DNA from: Pseudovibrio japonicus
Lineage (GTDB): Bacteria; Pseudomonadota; Alphaproteobacteria; Rhizobiales; Stappiaceae
Reading direction: 5' to 3'
Assembly (NCBI RefSeq): GCF_014651595.1
Contig: NZ_BMXE01000003.1
Location: forward strand, 434,001 to 498,000
DNA length: 64,000 nucleotides
Position numbers and translations under genes: made by a program. A model generated the notes under the pieces. It did not search any database. It saw only the letters and a list, made by a program, of their open reading frames with translations, and was not told where the DNA came from. Position 1 is the stretch's first letter, and every line of letters starts with the position of its first letter. Positions 9,016 to 61,235 of the stretch are shown in pieces.

Positions 9016-12000
9016 TTAGTCGAAGCGGCCACTTGCGTGTGCGAGCATGGTATAGACCTTGCCGGTATCAGAGGTCAGGTAAGTTTGACCGAGCTGATTG
9101 TCGCTGTCGCTTCTGGAGACCTGTGAGAGAAGCTGCTCGAAGTCCTGAATGTAACGCTCTACAGCGCTGCGGAATTCGGGGTCACGGCCGTACTTCTGAC
9201 GGATCTCGTCGAAGGTCTGCTGACCTTGCAGGGTGTACAGGCGGCGGGTGAAGACATCACGTTCGCCGCGCTTGTAGCGCTCCCACAGATCCACAAAGGT
9301 CTCATGGTCAACTGCACGAGCAATGTCCATGCTCAGGGAGTTGAGTGATTCAACCATGTGCTGCGGGGTGCGTGCGTTTGCTGTGTCACGCGCCGCATGG
9401 GCGGCACCGCCTTCATCATCTGATGCGCGGCGAAGCAGATCGCTGATCCAGCCCTTGGATGTGCCGTTCCCTTGTGGAGCCGAGGCTGAAGATGCCTGTT
9501 GGCGGGATGGGCGCGGAGCTGGTGCTTCCATGCGGCGTGGGGCAGGGGACATGCGAGCTGGCTTTGCGCCAGTTGCCGCAACCTGCTGCAGGGTTGGTGC
9601 TTCAGCTGCATAGCGTGCGTCAGCTTGTGCTGCTGCTGGCGCAGCGTTGAGTGCACGTGCAGGCTCCGCTGGTGTTGATACATCAAATTGAGAGGACTGG
9701 CGGGACACGATGGTGGAGAGTTCCTCCAGTGCCTTTACCTGTTCACTCACGATACGGCGCAGTGCAGAGGTTGAGGCTTCCGCCTCATCCGGCAGAGCCA
9801 GAATGCCCTTATTAAGCTCGGTGCGGGTTGCTTCCAGTTCCTGATGAACGGAGCGTGCCACATCGCGCATGCGTGCTGTTGCGTCTGTAAAGCGCTCAGA
9901 TGCCTCTGTGACGGTGGACTTCATGTCATGGAGGATTTCGTCATGGGCAGCGCGAACAGCGTCACGTGCCTTCTGACCTTCCATGCCAGCCGTCATGCGC
10001 ATGCTTTCGAACTGTTCGGTCACAGACTTGGTTGCCGCTTCTGCTGCTGCACGGAGCATGCCGGAAACTTCGCGGGCCTTATCGTCTGCAACTTCAAGGG
10101 TATCACCAAGGGTGGTGGTGTAGTTACCCATGAGCACTTCGACATCCTGCGTCTTCTTGATCAGGGTGTCTGCAACCATCTCGATTGCCATGCGGCGGTC
10201 GGTGAAGCGGTTGTCAACGTGGTTGTTGGTTGCTTCCAGATCAGCAATTGCCTGACCGAGAAGCTGGTTCTGGTCTTCCATGCGGGTTGCGATCTTCGCA
10301 GCGTCTGCAAGCACGGTATGTGTTGTGTTGCGGAGCTGGCCGACCTGAGCCTCGATGGTGGCGTTTGCTGCCTCTGTCTCGGTTACAGCGCGGTCAATCG
10401 TGGTTCTGAACTCGCCTGCGCGGTTTGCCAGGTTGGTTTCAACTTCAGACAGGTTCTCGCTTGCAGATGCAAGGATCTGACGAAGACTACCATTGGAGGC
10501 GTTCAGGCGTGTCAGGATCTCGGAGACGTCTGTTTCAAGACGCTCTTTGGTGCCTGTCATTACGTTCACGGCCATCCGGGTGCGATCTTCGATGGTGTTG
10601 CCGATGCCGTCGATGGTCTGTGTCAATGCGTCGGCTGCAACCGCGCCCTGACGGGTAACGGTTTCTGCAACTTCCTGTCCCTTTGTGGAGACTGCATTCA
10701 GCAGGATGTTCATGTCAGACTGCATGCGCTCGCGGCTGTCGTCCAGACGGATTGTTGCAATGTTGCTGCGTTCATCGATGGCGGTGACGATCTTGTCGCC
10801 AGCCTCCACCAGATCACGTGTTGCCTGCAGACCGTTTTGAGCAAAGCGGTCGGAAACTTCACGGCCCTTCACAGTCACTGCATCCAGAATTGCGTTCTGG
10901 ACTTCGTTGACGCGTGTGGTGAGGTCATGGGCGCGGTTTTCGATCGCCATGATCAGTTCGCTGCCGTCCTTGCCGATGATCTCGGAGAGCTCAGCGGAGC
11001 GGCTGCCGAAGGCATGATTGAGGTTCTCGGCTTTGACCAACAGTTCGTCTGCCACGGACTTGACGCGGGTAGACAAGGTGCCTGCAGCTTCTTCGATGGT
11101 GGAGAAGACGCGGGCCCGAACTTCGTCGGTTTCACCTGCCAGCATCTGGCGAACATCTTCTGCAGATTCTGCAAGGATCGCCTTGGAGCGCTGACTTTCC
11201 GCAGAGAGGCGACCAGTAACCAGCTCGATCGTCTGGGAGAGATCGCCGCGTACCTTGTCGCTTTCGCCGGTGAGGGCACCAGACATTTCAGCAAGGGTTG
11301 CGGTGTACATGGCGCGGGCGTTCTCGCTTTCGACGGCCAGAGCGTTTGCTGCCTGTGCCACGGTAGTCAGAACACGCTGTGCGACTTCGTCACCTTCTCT
11401 GGTAAGCGTTCCACGGACGGTTGCCATGGCATCAGAGACAGCTGCTGCTGCCTTCTCGCCTTCGCCTTCCAGAGAGTTGCGGGCTTCGCCGATGGAGCTG
11501 GAAACGATCTCCTGCAGACGTTCGCCTTCCTTGCTCAAGGTGCCGGAGAGCTGCTCTACGCTGCTGACAACCTTCTCGGTTGTGAGGTCGCGTTCCTGAG
11601 CCAGACGATCGGATGCCTGACCGACAACTTCGAGGATAAGGTCGCGAACACGGGTGCTTTCGGAACCAAGGGAAGAGGTTGCCTCTGCCATTGCGCTTGT
11701 AAGCGTGGTCGCTGCCTTCTCGCTCTCGTCGCCCATTGTGGTGGAGATGGCTTCGAGGCGATCGTTGAGGATCGTTTCGAGAGCCTTGGAGCGGGTATCG
11801 AGTGTTTCCGCAACTTCGAAGACCTTGGAACCGAGAGACACGTTGATCTCTGCGACTTGCTCGGACAGAGCGTCGGTGAGGTTCTTGGACTGCTTGACGA
11901 TGATGCTGCCAGCTTCTTCCAGACGGCTGTCGAGCGCTTCGTTGATCTCGGTCTGACCGTCGTGGAATGTCTTGGCAATCTCACGGGTCCGGTTGACCAG

Positions 12001-15000
12001 AGTTTCAGAGATCTGCTTGGCACGCGCATCCAGAGCCTGATCAATGCGTTCTGTTCCGGTGGACAGGGATTCAGCAAGGTGTTCTGCACGGTCAGAGATG
12101 ACAGTGGCAGCTGCTTCAACCTTGTCGCCCACAGCCTGATCGAAGGTGGACAAGCTAGTGGAGATTGTCTCTTCGATAGCTTCGCTGCGCTGTGCGAGGA
12201 TTTCGCCGATCTTCTCTGCACGGTTGGACAGAGAAACGCCAACCTGCTCCACACGATCGGAGAGGTTGACCGCGATGATGTCGGTACGGTCCTCGAGGAT
12301 CTTGGAGATGGACTGGGTTTTCTCTTCCAGAGTGCTTGCGATGATGCCAGTACCGGTTTCCACCGCATCGGCCAGCTTGGTGGTGCGGGTCTCGATGGTT
12401 TCGGTAAGGGCTGCAGCGCGGGTATCGAAGCTCTGCTCGAAGGTGTTGGTGCGTTCTTCGAGTTTAGCGTCCAGAGACTGGATGCGGGTGTCGAAGGATT
12501 CACCGATGTTCTGGCTGCGCAGGTCGAGAGACTGAACGAGATCGGACCCGTTTTCGGTCACAACCTGTTCCAGTTCTGCCAGCTTGCTTGCCAGACCGTC
12601 GTTCAGGGCACGGCCACGGATGTCGAGGGTCTCGGTAATGCGATCGCCGATTTCGGTCAGATCTGCGGTTACACGTTCACCACGGGAGCCGATGAGGTAT
12701 GCCAGCTGTGTACCGGTGTCAGCCAGTTTGTCAGCCAATTCCTCAGTGCGCAGGCCAAGTGCGCCGGTGATGTCAGCTGTTGTGCTTTCAAGAGTGGCCT
12801 TGAGGGCGGAGGTCTGCTTGCCGATGGTGTCAGCCACTTCAGCGCCGCGTTCTGCCAGACGCTGATCCAGCTCGGCACCGTTGACGGTGATGCTTTCGTA
12901 GATCTGGGTGCTGACGTTGCCAAGGCGGTCAGCCAGCTCGCCGCCGCTGACGGTGATTGTGGTGCCGAGGGTGTTGGCAGTTTCGTCCAGACGGGTTGCG
13001 ATGTCGCCGCCACGCAGGGACAGGTCGGCAATGATGCTTTCGCCGGCACCGCGCAGCACCTCGGAAACCTCGGTTGAGCGGGTGGACAGAGTGTCGATGA
13101 AGTGGGTGCACTGTACGGCGATTGCCTGGTTGATCTCGCGACCACGGTTTGCAATGCCGTCTGCGGCCTGTTCGCCGGTTGCGCGCAGGGCAGTGTCCAG
13201 GTTGGTGACGCGTTCGTCGACCACACCCATCATCTCTTCGGTGCGGCCTGTGATCGTATCGATCAGGCGGCCACTGGTAAGAGACAGGTTGGCGTTGATT
13301 TCTTCGCCGCGGGTGAGGATCTCGGTGGAAAGAGCCGAGCTTGCAGAAGAGAAGTGCTCGGTGATGCCGGAGATGGATGTTTCGAGCGTTTCATGCAGCT
13401 GTGCGTTCGCACCGGTGAACTGATCGGCCACGGTTGTTACGGTTAGGTTCAGTGTATCTGTCAGCTGTGCATTGGCGGTGTTGACGGTGTCTGTCAGGTT
13501 GCCGATGCCGCCGTCCATGATCGTGGAGATCTGGGAGCTTGCTGCATTGACAGTCTCGTTCAGGCTGCCAACGCCAGAGTACAATGTCTCCGAGATGATT
13601 GTGTTCGTGGTTTTGACGGAGTCCGTCAGGCTGCCCACACCGCTGTCCATGATCGTGGAGATCTGGGAGCTTACGGAATTGACAGTCTCATTCAGGCTGC
13701 CAACGCCGGTGTTCAGCGTTTCGGTGATGATTGTGTTTGCTGTTGTGACAGAGTCTGTCAGGGTACCGACGCTGCTGTCCATGATCGTGGAGATCTGGAG
13801 GCTTGCGGAGCTGACGCTCTCGTTGAGGCTACCGATACCGGTGTTCAGCGTCTCGGTGATGATTGTGTTTGCTGTTGTTACAGAGTCTGTCAGGCTGCCG
13901 ACGCCGCTGTTCATGATCGTAGAGATCTGAGAGCCCGCAGCATTGACTGTTTCGCTGAGCGTAACAACACCGCCGTCCAGAGCTTCGGAGATGTGTTCTT
14001 TTGCGCCAGAAACAGTGGTGGTGAGGTTGGTCACGCCGTATTCCAGCGCATCTGTGATGTTGGCGGTTGCGCCGGATACAGATGTGGTGAAGTTGGCCGC
14101 GCTTGTGTCCAGCGTTTCTGTTAGCTGTGCGGTTGCGCCATAAACGCTCTCGTTGATGTTGGTGACGCCGCTTTCCATGGTCTCTGCAATGGCAGAGGTG
14201 GAGTTGGCGACCGTTTGCGAGAGGAGTTCAACGCCGCTGTCCAGAGACTGGGAAAGCTCGCCGCTGACGCCATCCACGGTACGTGTGATGGTGTCGACGC
14301 CACCCTTCAGGGTCTCGGTTAGGTTGTCGTTTGCTGTGGTGATCTTCTCGGTGACGTCGTTGGACGTGGTGAGAAGTGTTGTTGTCAGCTCAGACCCGGC
14401 TGCTTCGACGCTCTGATTGATGGAAACAACGCCAAGGTTCATTGTTTCTGTCAGGGTGTCGTTTGCGCTGGTGATCTGCTCGGTCACCGTAGAGGTTGTT
14501 GTTGTCAGAGCCTCGGTCAGCTCAGCGCTTGCAGTGGTGACGCTTGTGCTCAGTTCTGCGACGCCAGTAGAGAGGATGTCGCCAATCTGAGTGCTTGCAC
14601 CTTCTGCGGAAGAGCTGATGGACTGAACGGAAACGTTGAGCGTGTCGGTGAGGGACGCGTTTGCTTCGGTCAGCTGCTCTGTAACAGTCGAGGTGGTGAT
14701 GACCAGTGTCTGTGCCAGCTCGGAGCTGGTTTCGGAAACGCTGGTGGTGAACTCGGAAAGGCCATTGACCAGTGTGGAGTTCAGCTCGGTGTTTGCAGCA
14801 GAAATCTGCCCAACAACGTCGCCGGAGGTGGTTACCAGCGTTTCTGTCAGCTCGGAACTTACTCCGACAAACTGTGCAGTCACAGAAGAGACGGTCTCTT
14901 CGATGGAGGCTGTCAGTTCGGTGCCCTGTGCCTGCAGAACGCCTTTCATGGCTTCTGTCTGGTCGGTGATGGTTGCGGAAAGTTCTTCGCCAGCTGCGCC

Positions 15001-16413
15001 CAGTGTTGCGTTCAGAGCGTCGCCGCGTTGTGCCAGCAGGTCACTGATTTCGTTGCCGCGTGCAGATAGGCCGTCAACAATCTCGGTGCCAGTGGTGGAC
15101 AGGGTGGTTGTGATCTCTTCACTGCGGCTTGCCAGGTTATCAACGAGCGCCTCTGAGGTTTCAGAGAGGCGTGCGTTGAGGTCGGTGCCGCGCTCGGTGA
15201 GGTTATCAATGAAGGAGTTCGCGGTGGAGGAGAACTCTTCATTGATGGAAGCCCCGCGATCATGCAGTGTTTCGGAGAGCTTGGAACCGGTTTCAGAGAG
15301 TGTTTCCACCAGCTCAGAGCCAGTGGATGTGAGACGCTCGACATAATCGTCGGAGCGGATGGTTAGCGAGGAGACCATGTCGCTGCCAGCTTCGGTGAAG
15401 CTGTCGGTGACTTCGGAGACGCGGCCTTCAAGCTTGCTTGTCATCTGCTCAAGAACAGAGTCGATCGAACCGGTGAGGCGTTCCCGGGCGCGATCAACAG
15501 AGGAGGCGAATTCCTCTGATGTGTTGGCGAGCTGTGAGGCAAGGTTTTCGTGGGAGCCGGAGATGGTTTCGCGCACCAGCTCTGCGTTGGCCTGAATGGC
15601 CTCGCGCTGGCTGACGAGTTCTTCCACCAGGCGGCGAATTTTCAGTTCATTGTCATTATAGGAGTTCTCAAGCGAGGACACTTCCTTATGAATGAGAACT
15701 TCCAGCTCGCTGGCGCGGGCAATCGCGCGTTCAATACCGTCGCCCATGGCGGCGGCTTCGCGGCGGATGGCCTGGCCAACGTTGAGGATGCTTTCTTTTG
15801 CAACGTCTTCCGGCTCAGCCAGACGAAGGGCAACCTCTGTCATGCCTCGGGCGACATTGCGCATCTCTTGCGCGCGCCAGAACATGAGGGCCATGACCCA
15901 GACAAAAGCAATTGGGACGACAATAAAGACGGAGATGAGAACCAGCGTCGGGTTTTCAAATACGCCTGAGAAAGATGCAGATTGTTCGAGCTGCGTTGCA
16001 AACGTGTCCCATGACATTGCAAGGCCGAGGCTGGCCCAGACAACGGAGACTGCAAACGCAAACCAGAAAGGAGCTGCGGAGGGCTTGCGTTGCAATGCGA
16101 ACATTAGAGAGCCAATGGACTGGCGGTCATCGTTGCTTGCTGTGGGGGGGCGGCCACCACGGCCATTTCTGCGAACCTGTCTCGAAGCTTGATTTTCTTC
16201 TACAAGCTGAGCCAGTTTTTTGTCAGAGGAGGGTGCTGTTGTGCCAGCCTCCTTTGCAGGGTTGGCAGACATTTGCGGGGTGTCCGCAGTCGTGCTTTCC
16301 TGTTCGCTGGATGAATTGGGCTCTAGTGTCGCGCCAAAATCCGCCTCAAGGGCTTCTTCTACCGCTGACAGAGCCACTTCCGATGGAGCTTTCGCCTTCG
16401 GGGTGTTCGCCAT
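9016..16413 (-). CDS. Giant apolipoprotein-like repeat protein, GPR/RgsE-like polar growth factor
   Basis: About 2465 residues. In order: an acidic cytoplasmic N-terminus of ~110 residues; two close membrane helices (about 113-135, PFWFAFAVSVVWASLGLAMSW; and 155-179, LVLISVFIVVPIAFVWVMAL); ~2000 residues of amphipathic helix in 11/22-residue periods; an A/P-rich linker; and a globular C-terminal segment (MVESLNSLSMDIARAVDHET, ending VYTMLAHASGRFD). This architecture matches the growth pole ring protein GPR of Agrobacterium and RgsE of Sinorhizobium, which organise unipolar growth; the assignment is by architecture, not alignment. ATG 16413 has a GAGG site; the frame stays open to 16491. The middle third is rich in S, T and G and contains near-identical DNA repeats. 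A CtrA box lies in its upstream region. Confidence 0.85.
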   Translation of the reverse strand: MANTPKAKAPSEVALSAVEEALEADFGATLEPNSSSEQESTTADTPQMSANPAKEAGTTAPSSDKKLAQLVEENQASRQVRRNGRGGRPPTASNDDRQSIGSLMFALQRKPSAAPFWFAFAVSVVWASLGLAMSWDTFATQLEQSASFSGVFENPTLVLISVFIVVPIAFVWVMALMFWRAQEMRNVARGMTEVALRLAEPEDVAKESILNVGQAIRREAAAMGDGIERAIARASELEVLIHKEVSSLENSYNDNELKIRRLVEELVSQREAIQANAELVRETISGSHENLASQLANTSEEFASSVDRARERLTGSIDSVLEQMTSKLEGRVSEVTDSFTEAGSDMVSSLTIRSDDYVERLTSTGSELVETLSETGSKLSETLHDRGASINEEFSSTANSFIDNLTERGTDLNARLSETSEALVDNLASRSEEITTTLSTTGTEIVDGLSARGNEISDLLAQRGDALNATLGAAGEELSATITDQTEAMKGVLQAQGTELTASIEETVSSVTAQFVGVSSELTETLVTTSGDVVGQISAANTELNSTLVNGLSEFTTSVSETSSELAQTLVITTSTVTEQLTEANASLTDTLNVSVQSISSSAEGASTQIGDILSTGVAELSTSVTTASAELTEALTTTTSTVTEQITSANDTLTETMNLGVVSINQSVEAAGSELTTTLLTTSNDVTEKITTANDNLTETLKGGVDTITRTVDGVSGELSQSLDSGVELLSQTVANSTSAIAETMESGVTNINESVYGATAQLTETLDTSAANFTTSVSGATANITDALEYGVTNLTTTVSGAKEHISEALDGGVVTLSETVNAAGSQISTIMNSGVGSLTDSVTTANTIITETLNTGIGSLNESVSSASLQISTIMDSSVGTLTDSVTTANTIITETLNTGVGSLNETVNSVSSQISTIMDSGVGSLTDSVKTTNTIISETLYSGVGSLNETVNAASSQISTIMDGGIGNLTDTVNTANAQLTDTLNLTVTTVADQFTGANAQLHETLETSISGITEHFSSASSALSTEILTRGEEINANLSLTSGRLIDTITGRTEEMMGVVDERVTNLDTALRATGEQAADGIANRGREINQAIAVQCTHFIDTLSTRSTEVSEVLRGAGESIIADLSLRGGDIATRLDETANTLGTTITVSGGELADRLGNVSTQIYESITVNGAELDQRLAERGAEVADTIGKQTSALKATLESTTADITGALGLRTEELADKLADTGTQLAYLIGSRGERVTADLTEIGDRITETLDIRGRALNDGLASKLAELEQVVTENGSDLVQSLDLRSQNIGESFDTRIQSLDAKLEERTNTFEQSFDTRAAALTETIETRTTKLADAVETGTGIIASTLEEKTQSISKILEDRTDIIAVNLSDRVEQVGVSLSNRAEKIGEILAQRSEAIEETISTSLSTFDQAVGDKVEAAATVISDRAEHLAESLSTGTERIDQALDARAKQISETLVNRTREIAKTFHDGQTEINEALDSRLEEAGSIIVKQSKNLTDALSEQVAEINVSLGSKVFEVAETLDTRSKALETILNDRLEAISTTMGDESEKAATTLTSAMAEATSSLGSESTRVRDLILEVVGQASDRLAQERDLTTEKVVSSVEQLSGTLSKEGERLQEIVSSSIGEARNSLEGEGEKAAAAVSDAMATVRGTLTREGDEVAQRVLTTVAQAANALAVESENARAMYTATLAEMSGALTGESDKVRGDLSQTIELVTGRLSAESQRSKAILAESAEDVRQMLAGETDEVRARVFSTIEEAAGTLSTRVKSVADELLVKAENLNHAFGSRSAELSEIIGKDGSELIMAIENRAHDLTTRVNEVQNAILDAVTVKGREVSDRFAQNGLQATRDLVEAGDKIVTAIDERSNIATIRLDDSRERMQSDMNILLNAVSTKGQEVAETVTRQGAVAADALTQTIDGIGNTIEDRTRMAVNVMTGTKERLETDVSEILTRLNASNGSLRQILASASENLSEVETNLANRAGEFRTTIDRAVTETEAANATIEAQVGQLRNTTHTVLADAAKIATRMEDQNQLLGQAIADLEATNNHVDNRFTDRRMAIEMVADTLIKKTQDVEVLMGNYTTTLGDTLEVADDKAREVSGMLRAAAEAATKSVTEQFESMRMTAGMEGQKARDAVRAAHDEILHDMKSTVTEASERFTDATARMRDVARSVHQELEATRTELNKGILALPDEAEASTSALRRIVSEQVKALEELSTIVSRQSSQFDVSTPAEPARALNAAPAAAQADARYAAEAPTLQQVAATGAKPARMSPAPRRMEAPAPRPSRQQASSASAPQGNGTSKGWISDLLRRASDDEGGAAHAARDTANARTPQHMVESLNSLSMDIARAVDHETFVDLWERYKRGERDVFTRRLYTLQGQQTFDEIRQKYGRDPEFRSAVERYIQDFEQLLSQVSRSDSDNQLGQTYLTSDTGKVYTMLAHASGRFD
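13450..13960 (-). repeat. 132-bp tandem repeats inside the GPR-like gene
   Basis: The motif ATGATCGTGGAGATCTGG (plus strand; last copy with one change) recurs at 13517, 13649, 13781 and 13913, exactly 132 bp apart. Each unit codes 44 residues made of two 22-residue helices, one with ISTIMDSGVGSLTDSV and one with ITETLNTGVGSLNESV. Copies differ at a few positions. High DNA identity here contrasts with the more diverged repeats elsewhere in the gene, suggesting recent duplication or gene conversion. Confidence 0.92.
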
Positions 16414-16802
16414 ATCTCGCCTCGCGTCCGTACTCTCTACTTGTCGGTCGTCAGCACAATGTTTCGCCTTTTGTGCCGGCGCCGTTACCACAAGGCGTGC
16501 GTCATATCGGGGAGAACGGTCTGCCCAAACGAGACCGATTTCCAGACAACAGCGGGTTTGATCCCCTGCAATCCGACAGCTCTAAATTGAGAGCACCGTC
16601 GAACTTCCGGGACCAAAAAACCGGGAGTTTTCAGAATCAATGCGAGCCGTTAAGATTAACGGAACATTAAGATTTAGATTTCCCCACCTTGCAGCTACCC
16701 TTAACCTAATGGCACAATCCGGTGGACTGTACAACAGAAGTGGCCCGGATTTTTAGGTGCTCTACGAGAAGTTACAGGCAGCATTTTTGGGGGGAACTCA
16801 CT
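16414..16802. other. 389-bp intergenic region between divergent genes
   Basis: Separates the GPR-like gene (leftward) from the small conserved gene at 16803 (rightward). It contains one CtrA box (16656-16670) and an AT-rich patch around 16650-16710 suited to promoters in both directions. No open frame here looks coding. Confidence 0.7.
16656..16670. promoter_or_regulatory. CtrA box TTAACGGAACATTAA
   Basis: A perfect TTAA-N7-TTAA match, the binding site of the cell-cycle regulator CtrA. It lies 243 bp from the start of the GPR-like gene and 133 bp from the start of the small gene at 16803, so it could serve either. Further TTAA/TTAAC half-sites lie on each side. Confidence 0.65.
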
Positions 16803-17099
16803 ATGGCTGATCGCGAAAATTCTCCAATTGGTTCTAAGGGCTTCCATAGGCCAAGCCCCACACAACTCAAATGGTTAAGGCGAGGTCTTAACGAAGCGGG
16901 TGGAAAGTTACCGCTGTTCGATGAGAGCGGTCGCCAAGTGTCTCCTGCAACTGTGCGCGCTTGTGTTGATGCAGGGTGGGCAGAGCCTTGGTTTTCCAAC
17001 CCGTTGAAGCCTGATTGGCTTATCTGCAAGCTGACCGCCAGAGGTCGTGAGGTGGCAGAGCAGGACGGAGATTCAAAAAAACTTGTTAACCAACTTTAA
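16803..17099 (+). CDS. Small conserved protein of unknown function
   Basis: 98 residues. ATG 16803 follows a GGGGGGAA ribosome site; the frame is open from 16722 but the added part is unlike protein. The central part (TQLKWLRRGLNEAGGKLPLF, then VRACVDAGWAEPWF and LICKLTARGREVAE) has the look of a small winged-helix fold: helices followed by a C-terminal K/R-rich hairpin as in PadR/MarR-like domains. I recognise no named family. It is divergent from the GPR-like gene and could share the CtrA box at 16656. The 281 bp after it contain nothing I can support. Confidence 0.75.
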   Translation: MADRENSPIGSKGFHRPSPTQLKWLRRGLNEAGGKLPLFDESGRQVSPATVRACVDAGWAEPWFSNPLKPDWLICKLTARGREVAEQDGDSKKLVNQL

Positions 17100-17380: not shown

Positions 17381-17716
17381 ATGGAACTACATAAAACTAC
17401 AGTAGCTATATGCAGGGATCATTTTTCAGCAATGACGTTTGATGATCCGGATCTGCAAGGTCAGATCCTAGAGGCGTTCGCGCAGCAGATCGAAGAGTTT
17501 CGTCGCGGCTTGCAGGAAAATTCTTCTCCCGAAGCTTTCGCAAGATTGCTGCATCGCTTCAAAGGCTCTGCGCGCGGTGTTGGAGCGTTTGCTCTCGGTG
17601 ATGCGCTTGAGCGCGCAGAACATGAGATCGGGAGCGGACAGAAGGCGGTACTCGCAGATGTTGAAACCTGCCTTGAGGCCGTTTCATCAGATCTTCTGGT
17701 GCTGCGAAAATCATGA
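17381..17716 (+). CDS. Stand-alone Hpt domain phosphotransfer protein
   Basis: 111 residues, a single histidine phosphotransfer domain. The motif LLHRFKGSARGVGAFALGDA contains the phospho-accepting histidine in H-x2-KGSA (residue 58 of this start), followed by the LERAEHEIG helix. Hpt proteins carry phosphate between hybrid kinases and response regulators. No kinase or regulator is adjacent, so its partners must be elsewhere; the hybrid kinase CckA in this window normally uses the different protein ChpT. A TTG at 17375 is an alternative start. It lies upstream of the ferredoxin gene but 121 bp apart. Confidence 0.85.
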   Translation: MELHKTTVAICRDHFSAMTFDDPDLQGQILEAFAQQIEEFRRGLQENSSPEAFARLLHRFKGSARGVGAFALGDALERAEHEIGSGQKAVLADVETCLEAVSSDLLVLRKS

Positions 17717-17795: not shown

Positions 17796-18158
<363 letters not shown>

Positions 18159-24110: not shown

Positions 24111-25169
24111 TCAATCCTGATCGGCAACCTCATCCGGTGCAGATTTTGTGATCTCGCTCATCAACTCTGAGAGTGATGGGCCTTTGGTGGCTATGAACGG
24201 GGCGGGGCGGCAGGTCTGTATGGCGGCAACGCCGATACGAGCGGTGAGGAAGCCGTTGACCAATCCTTCGCCAAGGCGGGCGGAAAGTTTTGCTGCCAAG
24301 CCCTGACCGATGAACTGTTCCACCAAACTATCACCAGCTGCCATGCCACCTGTTACAGCCAGATGGGCGGCAACGTCGCGCGCCAGACGCCAGAAACCAA
24401 GTGTGCCGGGACGAGCGCCATAGAGGCGAGAGACACGGCGGACGATGCGCAGGTTCTCATAGAGTACGATCAGGATATCGACGAGCGCGCGGGGGGACAG
24501 CGCCGTGATAACGGAAACCCGCTTGGCGCTTTCCATAACAATAAGGCGTGCGCGGGCATCAAGCGGTGCCAACAGGTCACGCTCCGCCAACTTGACCAAG
24601 TCCCTGCCATCAATGATTTCTTGCGTATGCCCTATGAGCAAGGTGCGGCCATGGGCCGTTTCTGGACGGTCTGCGTAAAGTGCCATCAGCTTTTGGAGTG
24701 CGGCGCGGGCTTCCTTATCGCTATCATTGTCGGCGGCGGTCTGCAGGTCATCACGGATATGGTCGATTTGCTCCAGCCGTGACAGGGAGCGCCATTCTTT
24801 GATGAACAGTCCGATCAGGCCAAGGAAGGCCAGGACAGTGAGGCCTACGGCTGTCCAGCCGAGCCAGTCATAGCGGGCAAAGAGATCTCTGATGAGGCTG
24901 TCGACTGCCAGACCAATCGCAAGCGAGAGTAGACCACCACCACCAATGGCAATGATCTTGCTCCAGCGGCTTACTGCTGGCTTTGGTTCTGGTGCGATGT
25001 TGTTTTGCGGCAGAGCGAGTGCGCTTTCGTCCTCTTCTGAGACGACAGCTTCGGAGGATAAAGGTTCCTGAGCGAACTCTCCTTCCAGCCGGACGGAACT
25101 GTCATCCAGTTTGAATGCCTTTGGCGCACGGCGTGTCTGAGGCTTATGCTGCGTTTTCTTGTTGGTCAT
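24111..25169 (-). CDS. ycjF: YcjF-family membrane protein (TIGR01620/DUF697)
   Basis: 352 residues. A variable charged N-terminus of ~70 residues precedes two membrane helices (about 73-92 and 104-124). The C-terminal DUF697 helical domain contains LYENLRIVRRVSRLYGARPG and VTGGMAAGDSLVEQFIGQGL, then ARLGEGLVNGFLTARIGVAA. Its ATG overlaps the stop of ycjX by the sequence ATGA, so the two are translationally coupled. In enterobacteria ycjX-ycjF follow the phage shock genes; no psp genes are seen here. The molecular role is not known. Confidence 0.92.
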   Translation of the reverse strand: MTNKKTQHKPQTRRAPKAFKLDDSSVRLEGEFAQEPLSSEAVVSEEDESALALPQNNIAPEPKPAVSRWSKIIAIGGGGLLSLAIGLAVDSLIRDLFARYDWLGWTAVGLTVLAFLGLIGLFIKEWRSLSRLEQIDHIRDDLQTAADNDSDKEARAALQKLMALYADRPETAHGRTLLIGHTQEIIDGRDLVKLAERDLLAPLDARARLIVMESAKRVSVITALSPRALVDILIVLYENLRIVRRVSRLYGARPGTLGFWRLARDVAAHLAVTGGMAAGDSLVEQFIGQGLAAKLSARLGEGLVNGFLTARIGVAAIQTCRPAPFIATKGPSLSELMSEITKSAPDEVADQD

Positions 25170-26662
25170 GCGAGTTTGTCTCCCAGCAAGAATTCCATTG
25201 CTCTGTCCAGCCGGATGTGCGGGAGGGACAAGGTGAGCCCTTCTGCGGTGCGTTCCAATTTTGGCGGGCGGAAGCGGACATATTTGAGTGCGGTTTGATC
25301 CTCTGCTTCCGTGCGGTCTTGCTCTTCGGCAAACAGGTCACTGAGGTCCTCGGGTAAGTCTCCGGGGAAGATGGCCGCTTCTTCTTCGCCATCAAACTGT
25401 ATGTCGCCGATGGTCTCTGCGGGCATTGGAGTGCCGAGCAGGGCAGGGGTTTCCACGCCGTCATGGTGAACCGTGGCTTGCCGTGTAGATCTAACGGAGG
25501 CAAGGGCGAGTGTTTCGACTGACGCTCCGGAGAACTCTGCGCGGTTGATTGCCTGTTGGACCAGCTGCTGCAAAAGCTTTTCGAGATGCTCGTGATCCTC
25601 TCGGCGCAGATGGTCTGCCTTTGTTGCGGCAAACAGAATGCGGTTGATCTTACGGGAGAGGATTGAAGACAGCCAGCTGGATTTGCCGGGTCGGAAGGCT
25701 CCCATAATCTCTGTCAGGGCCTGACTGAGGTCGTCCAGTGCTGCTGGTCCGGCATTGATGGCGGTGAGCGCGTCCACGAGCACGATTTGCCTGTCGAGCT
25801 TTGCGAAGTGGTTCTTGAAGAACGGTCTGACAACGTGCTTGCGATAGGCCTCGTAGCGGCGCTCCATAATGGCAAGGAGGGTGCCTGCCTTCGGTTTGAC
25901 CTGCGTGCTGCCAAGATCTAGCGGCGCGAACGTTAGGGCGGGGGTTCCCTTCATATCCCCGGGCATGAGGAAGCGTCCAGGAGGCAGCATTGATAGAGCG
26001 TTTTCATCATCCCGGCAGCGGCTCAGATACGTTGTGAAGGTGTTCGCCAGATCGCGGGCAACGTCCTCTGAAAATTCTTCGTGCAACTTGTCCTGATGGC
26101 GGGCCAGCGTGGACAGGAATTCGGCGGACAGGTCCGGCCTTGCTTTGGCGCGCTTAAGGGCTTCCTTCGAGAATTGGCGAAAGTCCTGACGCAGCAGAAC
26201 CAGATCAAGAAGCCATTCACCGGGATAGTCCACGATGTCAAGGTGAAGCTTGCCACCACCCAGCTGGCGGCTCAGGAAGGTGGCCGATTCATATTCAATG
26301 GTCAGGCGCAGCTGAGAAATCTGATGGGTGGAGTCTGGCCAGAGGCGTTCCTTTGTCAGCGTTTCAACATGCTGCTCATAGTTGAAACGTGGTACATCAT
26401 CATCCGGTTGTGGTTGAAGATAAGCGCGGGCGAGCCGTCCTGTGCCTGCTGCATCAAGCAGCGGCAGACGGCCACCAGCGATGAGGTTGTGAACGAGGGC
26501 CGAAATAAAGACCGTTTTGCCGGACCGGGCCAAACCGGTCACGCCCAGACGCACGGTCGGAACCGTCAGGTCGACCGCTGACTCAGCGAAATTATCGAGC
26601 GCTGTCTGCGCGTCGGTCAGCGCAAGTCTTGCGTTTTTAAATAATGAATTCAGTGGGCTCAC
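25166..26662 (-). CDS. ycjX: YcjX family P-loop GTPase-like protein (DUF463)
   Basis: 498 residues. The P-loop is GLARSGKT at residues 43-50. The rest has the DUF463 pattern, including LHLDIVDYPGEWLLDLVLL (a DxxG-like switch region), RFLMPGDMKGTPALTFAPLD and KINRILFAATKADHLRRED, where TKAD is the G4 motif. It is predicted to be cytosolic or peripheral and to act with YcjF, whose start codon overlaps its stop. E. coli YcjX is stress-induced with the psp genes; the substrate is unknown. The gene starts with a GGAGGAT site 8 bp upstream. Confidence 0.93.
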   Translation of the reverse strand: MSPLNSLFKNARLALTDAQTALDNFAESAVDLTVPTVRLGVTGLARSGKTVFISALVHNLIAGGRLPLLDAAGTGRLARAYLQPQPDDDVPRFNYEQHVETLTKERLWPDSTHQISQLRLTIEYESATFLSRQLGGGKLHLDIVDYPGEWLLDLVLLRQDFRQFSKEALKRAKARPDLSAEFLSTLARHQDKLHEEFSEDVARDLANTFTTYLSRCRDDENALSMLPPGRFLMPGDMKGTPALTFAPLDLGSTQVKPKAGTLLAIMERRYEAYRKHVVRPFFKNHFAKLDRQIVLVDALTAINAGPAALDDLSQALTEIMGAFRPGKSSWLSSILSRKINRILFAATKADHLRREDHEHLEKLLQQLVQQAINRAEFSGASVETLALASVRSTRQATVHHDGVETPALLGTPMPAETIGDIQFDGEEEAAIFPGDLPEDLSDLFAEEQDRTEAEDQTALKYVRFRPPKLERTAEGLTLSLPHIRLDRAMEFLLGDKLA

Positions 26663-29366: not shown

Positions 29367-29381
29367 TTAACAATAGTTTAA
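29367..29381. promoter_or_regulatory. CtrA box upstream of flgE (TTAACAATAGTTTAA)
   Basis: A perfect TTAA-N7-TTAA site 118 bp upstream of the flgE start and 46 bp upstream of a sigma-54 type promoter. The 325-bp region 29174-29498 between moxR and flgE holds no gene. Confidence 0.65.
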
Positions 29382-48512: not shown

Positions 48513-51500
48513 ATGGTCGAATCTGGGGGCGACTTTGGGGCTAAGCAGAAGCTTTCCTTTCTGCGCGCCACTTTACCGTTATTGCCGCGCCATGCATTTC
48601 ATGGGGTACGCAGTGTGAAGGTAAAGGGTAAGGCTTGGCTTGTCTCCTTTATGCTTGCGACGACCGCTCTTGGCGGCAGTGTCTTGAACGCATGGGCCGA
48701 TCCAGCGTTTGCCGTTGTTGAGGCGGAAGACACAGGCGAGTTTGCGCGGATGGTGATCACGTTTGAGGATCGTACTCTGCTGCCGCCCTTTGAGGCTTCC
48801 ATCTCCACCAGTGTGCTGCGTATCTCGTTTCCCGACGGTATTGATGCGGATATTGATGATGTCCCTGAGCAGCTGAGTGATTACATTTCCATTGCCCGTG
48901 CTGATCCAGATGGCGCTGCTTTGCGGTTTGCGTTGCGGCAAACACTGGACATTCACAGCATGGAAGCTGGCGAGAAGCTGTTTATTGATCTTCTGCCTGC
49001 CAGTTATGAGGGCCGGCCTCCGGCTTTGCCGCAGGAGGTGGTGGATGAGCTTGCGCGGCGGGCTGCCGAAGCGCTTGAGCGGGTTCGTATTCTTGAAGAA
49101 GCTAACGCGATTGAGGATCAGGAGATCAAGGTTAAGCTGCGGGTTGGCGAGCATCCAACATTTACCCGTTTGGTCTTTGACTGGAACGTGAAAGTGAACA
49201 GTGCGTTTGAGCGTTCGGGAAACAACATTCGCGTTAAGTTTGATCAGACCGCAGATTTGGATCTTTCTCGGTTTAAAGCCAGTTTGCCACTGAGCGTTCT
49301 TGATGTGGGGTCTCAGGCACGGGACGACGATCTCATCTTCAACATGATCGTTGATCCGCGCGCAGATGTTCGCTCGTTCGAGGAGGGTAAGCAGCTTATT
49401 GTTGACATCACTCCTGAAGATATAGGGCAACTTGATCCGCGTGTAGCGGAGATCCGTGAAGAGCTGTTCGGCGATGATGATGTGCCGCAGGATGTGTCGA
49501 ATGTCATCACCACGCTGGGCGATAAAACCGCTGCTGCTCCATCCGGAGATGCGCAAGCTGTGTCCAGTGCTCCGGGAAGTCTGGTTCCGCCGCCGCAAGT
49601 GAAGCAGACGCCGGCCGTGGATACGGGTGATGACTTTGAGTTGGTGCGGATGCCGTTGCCACTGGCCAAGCCCGAGCTTGAACGGATTGGCGAGCCTTCC
49701 CCGCGAATGGGTCCTGCGGACGTTCCCAAGGTGAAGCCTTCTGCGGAAGAACTCCGTGAGGAGGCGCACCAGAAGCAGGTGATAGAAGCTGCTGCTGATG
49801 ATGTTGAGGCGGATCGGGCCCCTGTTGCTGCAGTGGAGGACGCGCAGGATGATCCTGTTGCTGAGGTGATTACACCAGCTGATCTGACTGCTGAGGTGGC
49901 GAAGCCTGCTGCGCAGGCCGCTGTGCCGCTGGACGTTGCGCCATTTGATGCAGACACCGAGGATGACGTGGATTTGGCGCGCTGGGTTTCTGCTGAAACC
50001 ATTATTCAGGAAGAAAGTGATCCGGCTGACGAGGTTGTTGGCGTTGAGACCTATCGTATTGGCGATACGGTCCGTCTAGTCTTTCCGTTCAAAGGCGATG
50101 TGGGCGCTGCTGTGTTCCGCCGTAATCACAAGGTCTGGGCTGTCTTCGACAGTGCTGAACAGCTGGATGGGCGCGGAGTTCCTGCGGTCTTGAGTGATGT
50201 TGCGCGTAACGTGGAGCTTGAGAGTGTTGATGGTGCGCAGGTGCTTCGGTTTGACTTGAAGCGCACCACCTTGCTCTCCATCGAGTATCAGGATGAGGCC
50301 TGGGCGATTACGCTTGGTCCGTCGATCTCCACAAAGACCACTCCGGTCAATGTTGAGCGCAATGTGCAGGGGGATGGCTCCAATGTTCTGCGTTTGCCGT
50401 TTGGTGAAAGTGGCCGGTTGCATGTGCTGAGCGACAAGAGCGTTGGTGACCGGATTTATGTGGTCAGTGGTTCTGCTCCGGTGCGTGGTATTTTGAAGTC
50501 GCACCAGTTTCCGCAGGTGAAAATTCTGCGCAGCTCTCAGGGGCTTGCGGTGGTGCCGAGTGCGGACGGTATTGATGTCGAGCTGCTGGGCGAGGATCTG
50601 GTGATTTCCAGACCCGGCGGATTGAAGATTTCCAACCGCGGGCTTTCCAGAGGCACGACGATTAGTGACCATGTAAAAGATCCTACCCAGCCGGGTTTGA
50701 TTGAATTTTCCCAGCTTAATCAGCAAAAGCCTGAAGATTACATGCAGAACCTTCGGGCGCATGAAGAGGCAATTGTACAGGCTGAACCGGATCAGGTGAG
50801 CGGTCCACGTCTGGATATGGCGCGGTTTTTTCTCTCTAGCGGATTTGCGCAGGAGGCCATTGGCACGTTGAGTGTCATGGAGGATGACGACCCGCTTATT
50901 GGGAAGGATGCCACGTTTAATGTGATGATGGGCGCTGCGCAGATGCTGGCGGCGCGGCCGGGAGAAGCGCTTGAGTATCTGGCGGCTCCTGAGCTTGCCA
51001 GCAGTCCTGATGCAGCGGTTTGGCGGACTTTTGCCCATGCTGCGTTGGGAGACTGGCAGGGCGCGCACGCCAACCTGGGGCGTGCCCAGAGTGTCATGGC
51101 CAATTATCCGGTGATGTTGCAGGTGCGCTTTAATCTTGCTGCTGCCAAAACGCATCTGGAGCTCGGAAACTTCGGCAAGGCTCTTGGGGCTCTGTCGCAG
51201 ATTGAGCCGTCTGACGCCAGTGAAGAGCAGGCAGTTCAGTATGATTTGCTGCGCGGACGCATTGCGGATGCTTCTGGGCGCTCTCAGGAAGCGTTGGATG
51301 TGTACGATCTGGTGGTGCGCTCCAGTGAAGGGCCGGAAGCGGCGGAAGCCAAGTTTCTGAGTGTTAAGCTGCGGTATCGTGATGGACTGATTGATGCTGA
51401 TGAGGCCTTGGCAGATCTGGAAGGCCTTGCTGCATCGTGGCGTGGTGATGAAACCGAGCTCAAGACGTTGAGGCTTATGGCACAGTTGCATGCGCAGGAA

Positions 51501-52412
51501 GGTCATTACCGGCGGGCTTTTGAGGCGATGGCGCAGGCGGTTCAGTCTGATGCGGGCGCAGAGATTACCTCCGACATTCAGCATGAAATGGGATCTGTCT
51601 TCGCGACACTGTTTCTTGAAGGTAAGGCGCAAGTTCTTGAACCTGTCAAAGCACTTGCGCTGTTCTATGATTTTCGCGAGCTGGTGCCTGCGGGGCGTCA
51701 GGGAGACGAGATGGCGCGTATGCTTGCTAGTCGTCTGATTGATATGGACTTGCTGGATCAGGCAGCTGCTGTTTTGCGGCATCAGATCGACAAGCGCCTG
51801 AAAGGGTCCGCACGGGCACAGATCGCGGCTGACCTTGCTGTTGTTTATCTGCTGAACCGCAAGCCTGATGAAGCGTTGCGGGTGCTTTCGCAAACCCGTC
51901 AGGGGCAGCTGCCGGCAGCTTTGCAGCGTCAGCGCAACATTGTCGAGGCGCGGGCTTTGAGTGAGAGCGGGCGGCCTGACCTTGCTCTAGAACTGGTACG
52001 AAACATGTCCGGTCCCGATGTGGACCGGTTGCGTGCTGATACGCTGTGGTCGGCGCGTTCCTGGCGCAAGGCCGGTGAACAGCTGGAGCGAATGAACGGT
52101 AGCCGGTGGTCTGATGATGTGCCGTTAGCTGATTATGAGCGGGCAGATGTGATCCGCGCTGCCATCGCTTACACTCTTGCGGAAGATGTGCTGGGACTTG
52201 AGCGGCTGCGCCAGAAATATTCGCAGAAGATGAGCGAGTCTCCTGAGGCAAAAACCTTTGAGATCGTGACACGACCCGTTGAGAGGCGCGGTGTCGAGTT
52301 CCTGAATGTGGCTAAGACGCTTGGCGGCGGGGATAGTCTGGTCTCCTTCCTTGAGGAGTACAGGCGCCAGTATCTTTCAGCAAAGCCGTTTGTTGCGACA
52401 GAAGACGTCTAG
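48513..52412 (+). CDS. Large exported TPR protein with AMIN-like repeats
   Basis: 1299 residues. A signal sequence (LVSFMLATTALGGSVLNAWA, about 43-62) is preceded by a 35-residue basic stretch, so GTG 48615 is an alternative start; ATG 48513 has an AGGAG 12 bases upstream. Three beta-rich modules that resemble AMIN domains follow: about 68-165 (FARMVITFEDRTLLPPFEAS), 210-310 (FTRLVFDWNVKVNSAFERSG) and 510-605 (VRLVFPFKGDVGAAVFRRNH), separated by an acidic A/P-rich linker (about 330-490). Residues about 750-1290 are helical TPR-type repeats. It is found among flagellar genes; AMIN domains bind peptidoglycan or secretin-like partners, so a periplasmic motor or wall role is plausible but unproven. 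Confidence 0.75.
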   Translation: MVESGGDFGAKQKLSFLRATLPLLPRHAFHGVRSVKVKGKAWLVSFMLATTALGGSVLNAWADPAFAVVEAEDTGEFARMVITFEDRTLLPPFEASISTSVLRISFPDGIDADIDDVPEQLSDYISIARADPDGAALRFALRQTLDIHSMEAGEKLFIDLLPASYEGRPPALPQEVVDELARRAAEALERVRILEEANAIEDQEIKVKLRVGEHPTFTRLVFDWNVKVNSAFERSGNNIRVKFDQTADLDLSRFKASLPLSVLDVGSQARDDDLIFNMIVDPRADVRSFEEGKQLIVDITPEDIGQLDPRVAEIREELFGDDDVPQDVSNVITTLGDKTAAAPSGDAQAVSSAPGSLVPPPQVKQTPAVDTGDDFELVRMPLPLAKPELERIGEPSPRMGPADVPKVKPSAEELREEAHQKQVIEAAADDVEADRAPVAAVEDAQDDPVAEVITPADLTAEVAKPAAQAAVPLDVAPFDADTEDDVDLARWVSAETIIQEESDPADEVVGVETYRIGDTVRLVFPFKGDVGAAVFRRNHKVWAVFDSAEQLDGRGVPAVLSDVARNVELESVDGAQVLRFDLKRTTLLSIEYQDEAWAITLGPSISTKTTPVNVERNVQGDGSNVLRLPFGESGRLHVLSDKSVGDRIYVVSGSAPVRGILKSHQFPQVKILRSSQGLAVVPSADGIDVELLGEDLVISRPGGLKISNRGLSRGTTISDHVKDPTQPGLIEFSQLNQQKPEDYMQNLRAHEEAIVQAEPDQVSGPRLDMARFFLSSGFAQEAIGTLSVMEDDDPLIGKDATFNVMMGAAQMLAARPGEALEYLAAPELASSPDAAVWRTFAHAALGDWQGAHANLGRAQSVMANYPVMLQVRFNLAAAKTHLELGNFGKALGALSQIEPSDASEEQAVQYDLLRGRIADASGRSQEALDVYDLVVRSSEGPEAAEAKFLSVKLRYRDGLIDADEALADLEGLAASWRGDETELKTLRLMAQLHAQEGHYRRAFEAMAQAVQSDAGAEITSDIQHEMGSVFATLFLEGKAQVLEPVKALALFYDFRELVPAGRQGDEMARMLASRLIDMDLLDQAAAVLRHQIDKRLKGSARAQIAADLAVVYLLNRKPDEALRVLSQTRQGQLPAALQRQRNIVEARALSESGRPDLALELVRNMSGPDVDRLRADTLWSARSWRKAGEQLERMNGSRWSDDVPLADYERADVIRAAIAYTLAEDVLGLERLRQKYSQKMSESPEAKTFEIVTRPVERRGVEFLNVAKTLGGGDSLVSFLEEYRRQYLSAKPFVATEDV

Positions 52413-58575: not shown

Positions 58576-58670
58576 CGGCACGGGAGTGCTGGAGTGTCGG
58601 TTCCGGAGCGGACTATTCTCATGGCATAATGGAGCCAAATCGTCTGCGGGACAGCCGTAGAGAGGGTAAG

Positions 58671-61235
58671 ATGACGAAGACCGAAGCGCGGCGACCTGAG
58701 CCGGTGATTGACAGGACAGACAAAGGAGGCAGCCTCGGGGCCTTGATGCTGCTTGCATTAGGCCTTGTCGCAGCGACAGCCGCTTTTGCGCTGATGCGCA
58801 GAGAGCAGGCAGAGCCTTATATTCTCGGGCTTCTTGGTGTTCTGGCCGTGGTCGGCGTTTTCTCTTTGTTTGCCCTGGCCATTGGCCTGTTGCGGTTTGT
58901 TTCCAAAACCCATCGTAATCCGCTGGCTGAATCCTTCATGAATTCGATGGATGACGGTGTTTTGCTGGCCGATCACAATGGCCGCATCATTTATGCCAAT
59001 CAGTCCTATGCGGGGTTAACCGGTGCGCGTGGGCCTGCTGATGTGCGCACGGTGGAACGGGTATTTTCGTCAGACCCGGATGCGGCTGATGCCATCTTCC
59101 GGCTTTCGCAAGCGGTGCGGGCCGGACGCTACGCAACAGAAGAAGTGCGCCTGCCAAATGCGGTTGGTGAAGTTGCCAGCGGTGCGCGCTGGTACCGTAT
59201 TAGTGTGCGCCCTCTGGGGCAGGATGCAGCGGTTGGTGCTGATAGCGGTATTACCATCTGGCAAGTCGCCGACATTACGCGGGATCGCACTGAACAGGAG
59301 AATTCCTTTCAGGAGCTGCAGCGGGTTATCAATTTCCTCGATCATGCGCCCTGTGGGTTTTTCTCTTCCGACAGCACTGGCAAGCTGGTTTATCTCAATG
59401 CGACGCTTGCCGACTGGCTTGGCTATGATCTAACCCAGTTCATCTCCGGTGAGTTGTCGCTGAAGGACATTGTGCGCGGTGAAGGCGCGGCTCTTGTGGA
59501 GGCGTTGCAGGGCTCTGAAGGGGAAGTGAAGACTGAGAGCTTTGATATTGACCTCGTTACCCGCAGTGGCACAGGGTTGCCGGTGCGGCTGGTGCATCGT
59601 GTTCCGTTCGGGGCCGATGGGCTTGCTGGTGACAGCCGCACGCTTGTGATTAACCGCTCAGCAGGCAATGATGATGAAGAAGCGTTGCGTGCTGCGGAAG
59701 TCCGGTTCTCGCGGTTCTTTAACAATACACCGGTTGCCATTGCATCCATTGACAAGAGTGGCCGCGTTGAGCGCACCAATGGTCCGTTCATGCGCTTGTT
59801 TGAAGCTGGTGAAGGGCTTGGCAAGGATGTGAAGCTGACCGAGTTTGTGGTGGAGAATGATCGTTCCGCCTTGCAGGCTGCGCTTGACGAAGCGGCGCTG
59901 GGCAAGAGTGAGATTGCTCCGCTGGATGTTCTTCTGGAAGGCAAAGGTGATCCACGTTCCGCGACCTTCTACGTTTCTGCCGTGCAAGACGGGCAGGCGG
60001 GTGAAGATGCGGCGGTGGTTTACGTGTTGGAGACTACGCAGCAGCGGGCGTTGGAAGCCCAGTTTGCGCAAAGCCAGAAGATGCAGGCTATTGGCCAGCT
60101 TGCAGGCGGTGTGGCCCATGACTTTAACAATGTTCTGACGGCGATTATCGGGTTCTCTGACCTGCTGCTGGCGAGCCATCGCCCAACCGATCCGGCGTTC
60201 CAGGACATCATGAACATCAAGCAGAATGCGAACAGGGCGGCGGGTCTTGTGCGTCAGCTGCTTGCCTTCTCCCGCCGCCAGACCTTGCGTCCGCAGGAGC
60301 TGGCTCTGGCTGATGTGCTGGCGGATGTTTCTATTCTTCTGGACCGTCTGCTTGGCGAGAAGATCGAGTTGAAACTGGTGCACGGTCGCGAATTGTGGCC
60401 GGTGATGGCGGACGTGAACCAGCTTGAGCAGGTGATCGTCAACCTTGCGGTGAACGCACGGGATGCGATGGAAGGGGGAGGCGAGGTCTCCATCCGCACG
60501 CTTAACGTGGAAGAAGCGGCTTCCAAGTCCTACGAGAACACGCGTGGCATGCCGCGGGGCGAGTATGTGCTCATCGAGGTCGCTGATAATGGCCACGGCA
60601 TGACGCAGGATGTCATGGATAAGATCTTTGAGCCTTTCTTCTCCACCAAGGATGTAGGCAAGGGAACGGGTCTGGGGCTTTCAACGGTTTACGGGATTGT
60701 GAAGCAGACCGGCGGCTATGTGTTCTGTACCAGTGAGGTTGATGTGGGTACCACGTTCCGCATCTTCCTGCCGCGCTACATTCCTTCTGAGAAGGAAGAG
60801 GTTGTTGAGGTTAAACCGGAACAGGAAGTGACTGAGGCTGATCTGACGGGTTCTGCAACTATTCTTCTTGTTGAGGATGAGGAAGCCGTGCGGGCCTTTG
60901 CAGCGCGTGCGTTGAGTGGCCGTGGCTATGAGGTCTTTGAAGCCGGGTCTGGCACGGAAGCACTTGAGGTAATGGAAGAGACCGGCGGAGCGGTTGATCT
61001 TGTGGTCTCTGACGTGGTGATGCCGGAAATGGACGGGCCGAGCTTGCTCATTGAACTGCGCAAGACGCGTCCTGATCTGAAGATTATCTTTGTGTCCGGT
61101 TATGCCGAAGATGCGTTTGAGAAGAACCTGCCGGCTGATGAGAATTTTACGTTCCTGCCGAAGCCGTTCACGCTGAAGCAGCTTGCAACAACAGTGAAGA
61201 AAACTTTGGAAGCCAAGACGCAAGAGCGCGCATAG
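58671..61235 (+). CDS. cckA: Cell-cycle hybrid histidine kinase CckA
   Basis: 854 residues. Two membrane helices (21-41, 51-76); PAS-like domains at about 85-205, 215-330 and 340-455; the HisKA H-box [20 protein letters not shown] with histidine 483; the ATPase domain ([41 protein letters not shown]); and a receiver domain with aspartate 781 in [14 protein letters not shown] and lysine 831 in LPKPF. This is the CckA layout and H-box. CckA phosphorylates CtrA through ChpT and can reverse the flow in response to cyclic-di-GMP and DivL. ATG 58671 follows GAGGGTAAG. It lies 95 bp after flhB and may share its transcript. Confidence 0.93.

Follow-up and report, generated by a model that had tools for sequence, protein, structure and literature searches.

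A 2,465-residue GPR/RgsE ortholog in Pseudovibrio japonicus and the relation of its family to MreB

The window analysed here, a whole stretch of 64,000 nucleotides from Pseudovibrio japonicus (contig NZ_BMXE01000003.1, positions 434,001 to 498,000), carries a gene, here called gpr, for a protein of 2,465 amino acids (aa). The protein is very probably the ortholog of Agrobacterium GPR and Sinorhizobium RgsE in a member of the Hyphomicrobiales without MreB, where it most likely acts as a membrane-anchored scaffold of the growing pole. Membership of the family, the architecture, the repeat geometry, the lack of a detectable Rod complex (MreB, MreC and PBP2) in this genome and the gene order shared with S. 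meliloti are established directly by the analysis. Within the order, moreover, the loss of MreB goes with the giant length of this protein and not with the presence of its C-terminal domain.

Family membership and architecture of the protein

The gene and its parts, in the order of the protein, are the following (S+T+G, serine plus threonine plus glycine).

9016..16413, minus strand: gpr/rgsE ortholog, 2,465 aa plus stop, assigned from the open frame, the RgsE match at both ends and the reverse search
15628..16152, minus strand: N-module, residues 88-262, a two-helix membrane hairpin and then a long cytoplasmic helix; 44% identical to RgsE over 175 aa
9664..15636, minus strand: helical middle, residues 260-2250, with hendecad (11/3) repeats, a net charge of -166, 2 prolines and a match to PF01442
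13114..14793, minus strand: S/T/G-rich, low-charge part of the middle, residues 541-1100, 40% S+T+G and 14% charged
13475..13993, minus strand: tandem array of 132-bp (44-residue) units in 3.5-3.9 copies, found by Tandem Repeats Finder with scores of 568 and 598
9379..9663, minus strand: linker rich in proline and alanine, residues 2251-2345, 10 of these 95 residues being proline; contains the conserved GWISDLLRRAS
9019..9378, minus strand: C-terminal all-helical domain (C-domain), residues 2346-2465; 63% identity to RgsE over 152 aa

The identification is carried by the two ends of the protein, which match S. meliloti RgsE (SMc00190) with expect values (E) of 3e-43 for the N-module and 2e-65 for the C-domain. 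When RgsE was searched back against the genome of the window, all eight matches fell inside gpr, and genes for an Hpt phosphotransfer protein and a 2Fe-2S protein lie upstream and divergent in both organisms. LZK74_25975, annotated as 'kinesin' in CP090106.1, was taken as RgsE because its 2,089 aa are the published length, and RgsE is reported to be 42% identical to GPR (PMC7327166). The S. meliloti reference record was reached by tblastn of plasmid records. That record (L033) is labelled as the S. meliloti plasmid pSymB, measures 3.7 Mb, carries rgsE together with cytochrome bc1 genes and is probably a mislabelled chromosome; it exceeds what we take to be the size of pSymB. Judged by its sequence, the 2,465-aa protein is an ortholog of GPR/RgsE and an ordinary member of that family.

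The frame is intact, running from an ATG at 16413 to a stop codon at 9016-9018, and a GAGG that by eye resembles a Shine-Dalgarno sequence stands directly 5' of the ATG; an alternative GTG start at 16491 would give a product 26 aa longer. The protein opens with a tail of about 110 residues containing 8 prolines, followed by adjacent hydrophobic helices at about 113-134 and about 153-180, as placed by hydropathy and the structural model. The AlphaFold model of the N-module is a hairpin and then one long helix, with a mean predicted local distance difference test score (pLDDT) of 82.4 and a predicted template modelling score (pTM) of 0.43. The last 154 residues are modelled as all-helical with moderate confidence (mean pLDDT 69.9, pTM 0.59). 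Searching the C-domain against PDB sequences gave nothing convincing (six matches at E<=1, the best with E 0.22), and none of the 184 Foldseek matches of its model at E<=10 reached E<=0.001, a negative fold search that says little because the model is only moderate.

Between the two ends the helix is built on a hendecad. Over residues 261-2250 the autocorrelation of hydrophobicity peaks at lags 11, 22, 33 and 44 with values of 0.36-0.44, against a 95th percentile of 0.07 for the maxima of shuffled sequences, and the spectrum peaks at 11/3 = 3.667 residues with a power of 173. At the heptad value of 3.5 the power is 0.7, and a heptad coiled coil was rejected for this reason. In both stretches that were measured, two positions of every 11-residue unit, spaced four apart, are strongly hydrophobic. 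The apolipoprotein family PF01442 matches the middle in 13 stretches with E 1.6e-107 and 357.8 bits, well above its gathering cut-off of 90, and this match may reflect the geometry of the repeats rather than descent. The 132-bp array looks like a recent internal expansion, its neighbouring 44-residue units being identical at up to 37 of 44 positions as compared with 17 of 44 for the best in S. meliloti RgsE. The gpr frame measures 2,248 to 2,746 aa in 15 genomes of the same genus and 1,778 to 2,022 aa in three other genera of the family.

An earlier note on this DNA, made from the letters alone, had read the region as a GPR/RgsE-like polar growth protein, and most of what it claimed is borne out. 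The frame of 2465 residues at 9016..16413 is as it gave it, on the minus strand, which it had left unstated; the two adjacent N-terminal membrane helices are confirmed, as are the roughly 2000 residues of 11/22-residue amphipathic repeats, to which periods of 33 and 44 can be added. The C-terminal end that it called conserved was found with the last 154 residues as query in all 31 genomes searched, of which one is the window's own and 30 are relatives, with E no weaker than 3e-20. Its S/T/G-rich middle is real, and the word "expanded" is supported because neighbouring units of the array are so much more alike than any in RgsE. The identification also passes the check that the note had itself proposed, since S. 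meliloti RgsE is matched at both conserved ends, gpr alone comes back in the reverse search and the gene order is shared.

Protein length and the presence of MreB

A C-domain profile of 12 rows (A1) matched 146 of the 149 genomes of the order set, all at least 95% complete, the misses being G339, G366 and G418; across the class it matched 107 of 289 genomes. Loci were compared individually among the best 80 of 578 relatives, which is no census and includes no record titled Caulobacter; in these named loci the N-module was found at E<1e-5 in 59 of the 60 with a complete frame (the miss, L161, has 317 aa). The 59 include six short forms (L111-L116), with E 1.5e-25 to 5e-12, three of them (L114-L116) matching from the second membrane helix on only. 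A 774-aa protein of Sphingomonas parapaucimobilis (L034) likewise has the RgsE C-domain (42% over 112 aa), two membrane helices and a divergent Hpt neighbour. The earlier note had seen in the window a sign that the machinery of unipolar growth extends beyond the classical rhizobia; the homolog is indeed there, and the claimed significance is not new, because RgsE homologs have been reported in all Rhizobiales families (Krol et al. 2020, PMC7327166).

The genome of the window, rated 100% complete, contains no match of MreB grade. Its best match has E 3.9e-16 and lies in a 683-aa frame that is DnaK-like by its length only, whereas real MreB in the order scores E below 1e-100. MreC was not found in this genome, and the best PBP2 stretch reached 128 bits, or about 175 for the two stretches of that frame together, against a cut-off of 455.

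Across the order, MreB was found at E<=1e-25 in 18 of 149 genomes, and every one of these 18 has the C-domain. Length is what differs. The comparison comprised 137 frames, nine under 600 aa having been excluded, two of which came from MreB-bearing genomes and at least three of which begin, by their coordinates, at a contig edge. The frames of MreB-bearing genomes span 915-1,498 aa, none of the 16 reaching 1,500 aa; those of MreB-less genomes have a median of 1,875 aa, and of these 121 frames 92 reach 1,500 aa and 29 do not. The difference gives a Mann-Whitney p of 2e-6, or 0.005 for family medians (8 versus 35 families), where neither genomes nor families are independent of one another. Among 29 named genomes of unstated completeness chosen from the same best 80 of 578, MreB is present in all six with short forms (751-1,030 aa) and in none of the 23 whose form is long (at least 1,414 aa).

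A strict rule that the long form means no MreB was rejected, since frames of 1,500-2,491 aa coexist with MreB outside the order (for example in G067, G311 and G136, and in G131, whose C-domain match is weak at 2e-9). Five loci outside the order (L075, L076, L077, L082 and L083) have frames of 2,000-2,491 aa with the C-domain and MreB present, possibly through independent lengthening. It has been suggested that Rgs proteins and MreB are mutually exclusive, four MreB-bearing Rhizobiales being without Rgs homologs (Krol et al., PMC7327166). For the C-domain of RgsE this exclusion fails here; within the order it holds for the giant form.

Proposed function and alternative explanations

We propose that the N-terminal two-helix hairpin anchors the protein in the inner membrane, that the hendecad helix of about 2,000 residues would pack with other copies into a ring-like scaffold, and that the C-terminal helical domain would dock or control the growth machinery. 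Peptidoglycan synthesis could thereby be confined to the new pole of a cell that lacks the MreB/MreC/PBP2 elongasome. Polar growth of the organism is supported by the absence of the Rod complex. By analogy with relatives, the protein would be expected to localise to the pole, form a ring and recruit growth enzymes, and the cell to grow from one pole. GPR forms a 200-nm ring, a slight excess of it leads to extra poles, its loss gives round cells with circumferential peptidoglycan synthesis, and deletions at its C-terminus strongly block complementation (PMC8262873). RgsE was detected at the growing pole only and interacts with RgsA, RgsS and TolQ (PMC7327166), and the Brucella homolog sits at the new pole (PMC9938171).

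Several points weigh against this proposal. The growth mode of P. japonicus itself is one that we infer from its relatives, and Agrobacterium GPR was compared by its published description alone. The middle of the protein is only about 24% identical to that of RgsE, a similarity driven by the repeats. Paired foci of GPR remain without the C-terminal 332 residues (Zupan 2021, PMC8262873), and the ring can therefore do without the C-domain. Only 6 of 14 control genomes exceed the cut-off of the PBP2 model, and the absence of PBP2 is therefore weaker evidence than the results for MreB and MreC. Finally, 96 of 103 genomes of the class that carry the C-domain outside the order also have MreB (E below 1e-50), and the C-domain alone is not a mark of polar growth.

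The most serious alternative, which we consider improbable, is that the protein is a new-pole landmark of the TipN type, organising polarity and chromosome segregation, with control of the growth zone secondary or absent. Published work already describes GPR as similar or analogous to TipN (PMC8546619, PMC13170164), and short relatives with related ends occur together with MreB elsewhere in the class. Against this, the loss of GPR or RgsE in relatives disturbs rod shape and growth (PMC8262873, PMC7327166). Eight short relatives drawn from six families, together with RgsE and the Sphingomonas protein, were matched to NCBIfam at E<=1e-5 without any model named for TipN turning up; three of these proteins gave weak SMC matches far below the cut-off.

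We hold it still less likely that the helical middle is a coat of the apolipoprotein or perilipin kind on membrane or lipid droplets, with lipid handling as the main function, as might be read from the PF01442 score, from the 11/3 periodicity with its two strongly hydrophobic positions per 11 residues, and from the lipid role proposed by Zupan 2021 (PMC8262873). The net charge of -166 over residues 261-2250 would be unfavourable on an anionic inner membrane, however, the stripe of hydrophobic residues has the narrowness of a hendecad coiled coil, repeat geometry alone may account for the PF01442 match, and most of the identity to RgsE lies at the ends of the protein. It is hardly conceivable that the protein is an anti-phage protein like ZorA, or some other long helical protein that is unrelated to GPR and resembles it only in its repeats: the NCBIfam ZorA model does match with 3e-14, but its 52.2 bits are far below the cut-off of 190, RgsE itself scores 69.8 bits on it, the best stretch lies inside the repeats and the ends match RgsE. 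An identity as ZorA was rejected on that score. The polar scaffold of the GPR/RgsE type is the reading that we prefer.

Gene neighbourhood, signalling and relation to known systems

Four features lie upstream of gpr.

16656..16670, no strand assigned: TTAA-N7-TTAA CtrA-type box between the gpr and hpt genes, about 240 bp before the gpr ATG
16803..17099, plus strand: small divergent open reading frame, no Pfam match at E<=1e-5
17381..17716, plus strand: divergent stand-alone Hpt phosphotransfer protein, PF01627 with 1.6e-7, over the cut-off
17838..18158, plus strand: 2Fe-2S ferredoxin, PF00111 with 2e-11, a neighbour common to S. meliloti

The pairing with Hpt is conserved. A profile made of two sequences only, the Hpt proteins of the window and of S. 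meliloti, both over the Pfam cut-off, found a divergent upstream Hpt in 32 of the 40 named loci, from the best 80 of 578 relatives, that have at least 900 bp upstream, including all six short-form loci (without it are L151, L155, L157, L159, L161, L172, L183 and L186). A retest with equal thresholds on 3-kb stretches again gave 32 of 40 upstream, and the downstream control, 234 kb from 78 loci of which 39 belong to the 40, gave none. Earlier searches had found 16 of 44 loci with a narrow motif and 28 of 44 with a profile; the latter count is not relied on because its profile was built from matches in the same loci. Of the 42 Hpt proteins aligned, 37 retain the phospho-accepting histidine. In five loci, all from Phyllobacterium (L168, L171, L175, L185 and L190), it is replaced by K or R, and because the histidine is absent the role in phosphotransfer may be lost there; these five may form a pseudo-Hpt lineage. 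In the papers on RgsE/GPR and on TipN that were consulted, the 2019 Proceedings of the National Academy of Sciences (PNAS) paper on GPR not being among them, no description of the Hpt neighbour was seen.

TTAA-N7-TTAA is what we take to be the CtrA consensus. Candidate boxes of this type occur in 12 of 93 upstream regions, where 0.97 would be expected from two-base-block shuffles, with none in the other 81 and none in 79 downstream regions. The independent support for the box is smaller than these counts, because L074 and L115 denote one and the same locus, and the genus of the window contributes five of the twelve. The window as a whole holds five such boxes against 0.24 expected; the other four lie at 29367, 35744, 55033 and 55050, two of them about 110 bp before FlgE-type and flagellin frames.

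Those frames belong to a large flagellar cluster at 29490-58575 (FlgE-type, FlgK, flagellin, FlgI, FlgA, FlgG/F-type, FliM, FliR and FlhB), within which a plus-strand frame of 1,299 aa (48513-52412) has no Pfam match at E<=1e-8. Directly after flhB, at 58629-61235 on the plus strand, stands an 868-aa hybrid histidine kinase (PAS, HisKA, HATPase and receiver domains), CckA-like by domain order and a possible phosphorelay partner. A YcjX-like gene paired with a DUF697 gene lies at 24111-26662 on the minus strand, and wider synteny is likely because a YcjF family gene of S. meliloti lies within 6 kb of rgsE.

The gpr product itself extends a known family by one genome, as expected, and the suggested likeness of GPR to TipN is no novelty either. 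The parts worth following are the relation between length and MreB, the short forms that occur alongside MreB, and the conserved Hpt pairing. We speculate, as a tentative idea that is possible though short of probable, that an alphaproteobacterial family of pole scaffolds, with two old ends and a helical middle varying in length between a few hundred and more than 2,000 residues, has in GPR/RgsE its enlarged, MreB-less form; that polar growth in the order arose by lengthening of this pre-existing scaffold as MreB was lost; and that the scaffold is wired to a phosphorelay through a dedicated, divergent Hpt and CtrA-type control of the promoter. The relation between length and MreB makes the replacement of dispersed elongation by polar growth, a long-standing question, directly testable, and the conserved Hpt neighbour would be a concrete candidate for tying the growth pole to cell-cycle signalling.

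Among the known systems, Caulobacter TipN, compared by description alone, is reported to be a polytopic membrane protein with a large coiled coil that marks the new pole (PMC4460556); unlike the gpr product, it has 882 aa (PMC13170164) and is a reported regulator of MreB dynamics. The six short relatives L111-L116, which come from metagenome-assembled genomes (L111 is a Parvibaculum sp.), share the N-module, the C-domain and the divergent Hpt, whereas they have about 30-42% of the length, and MreB is present in all six genomes. GPR of A. tumefaciens (Atu1348, 2,115 aa) is described as having two N-terminal membrane helices, about 1,700 helical residues with PF01442 matches and an essential C-terminus (PMC8262873). 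RgsE of S. meliloti agrees with the gpr product in its N-module, hendecad middle, C-domain, divergent Hpt and nearby 2Fe-2S gene; it differs in being 376 residues shorter, in lacking the recent 44-residue array and in the composition of its middle, where S+T+G does not exceed 29% in any of the parts measured.
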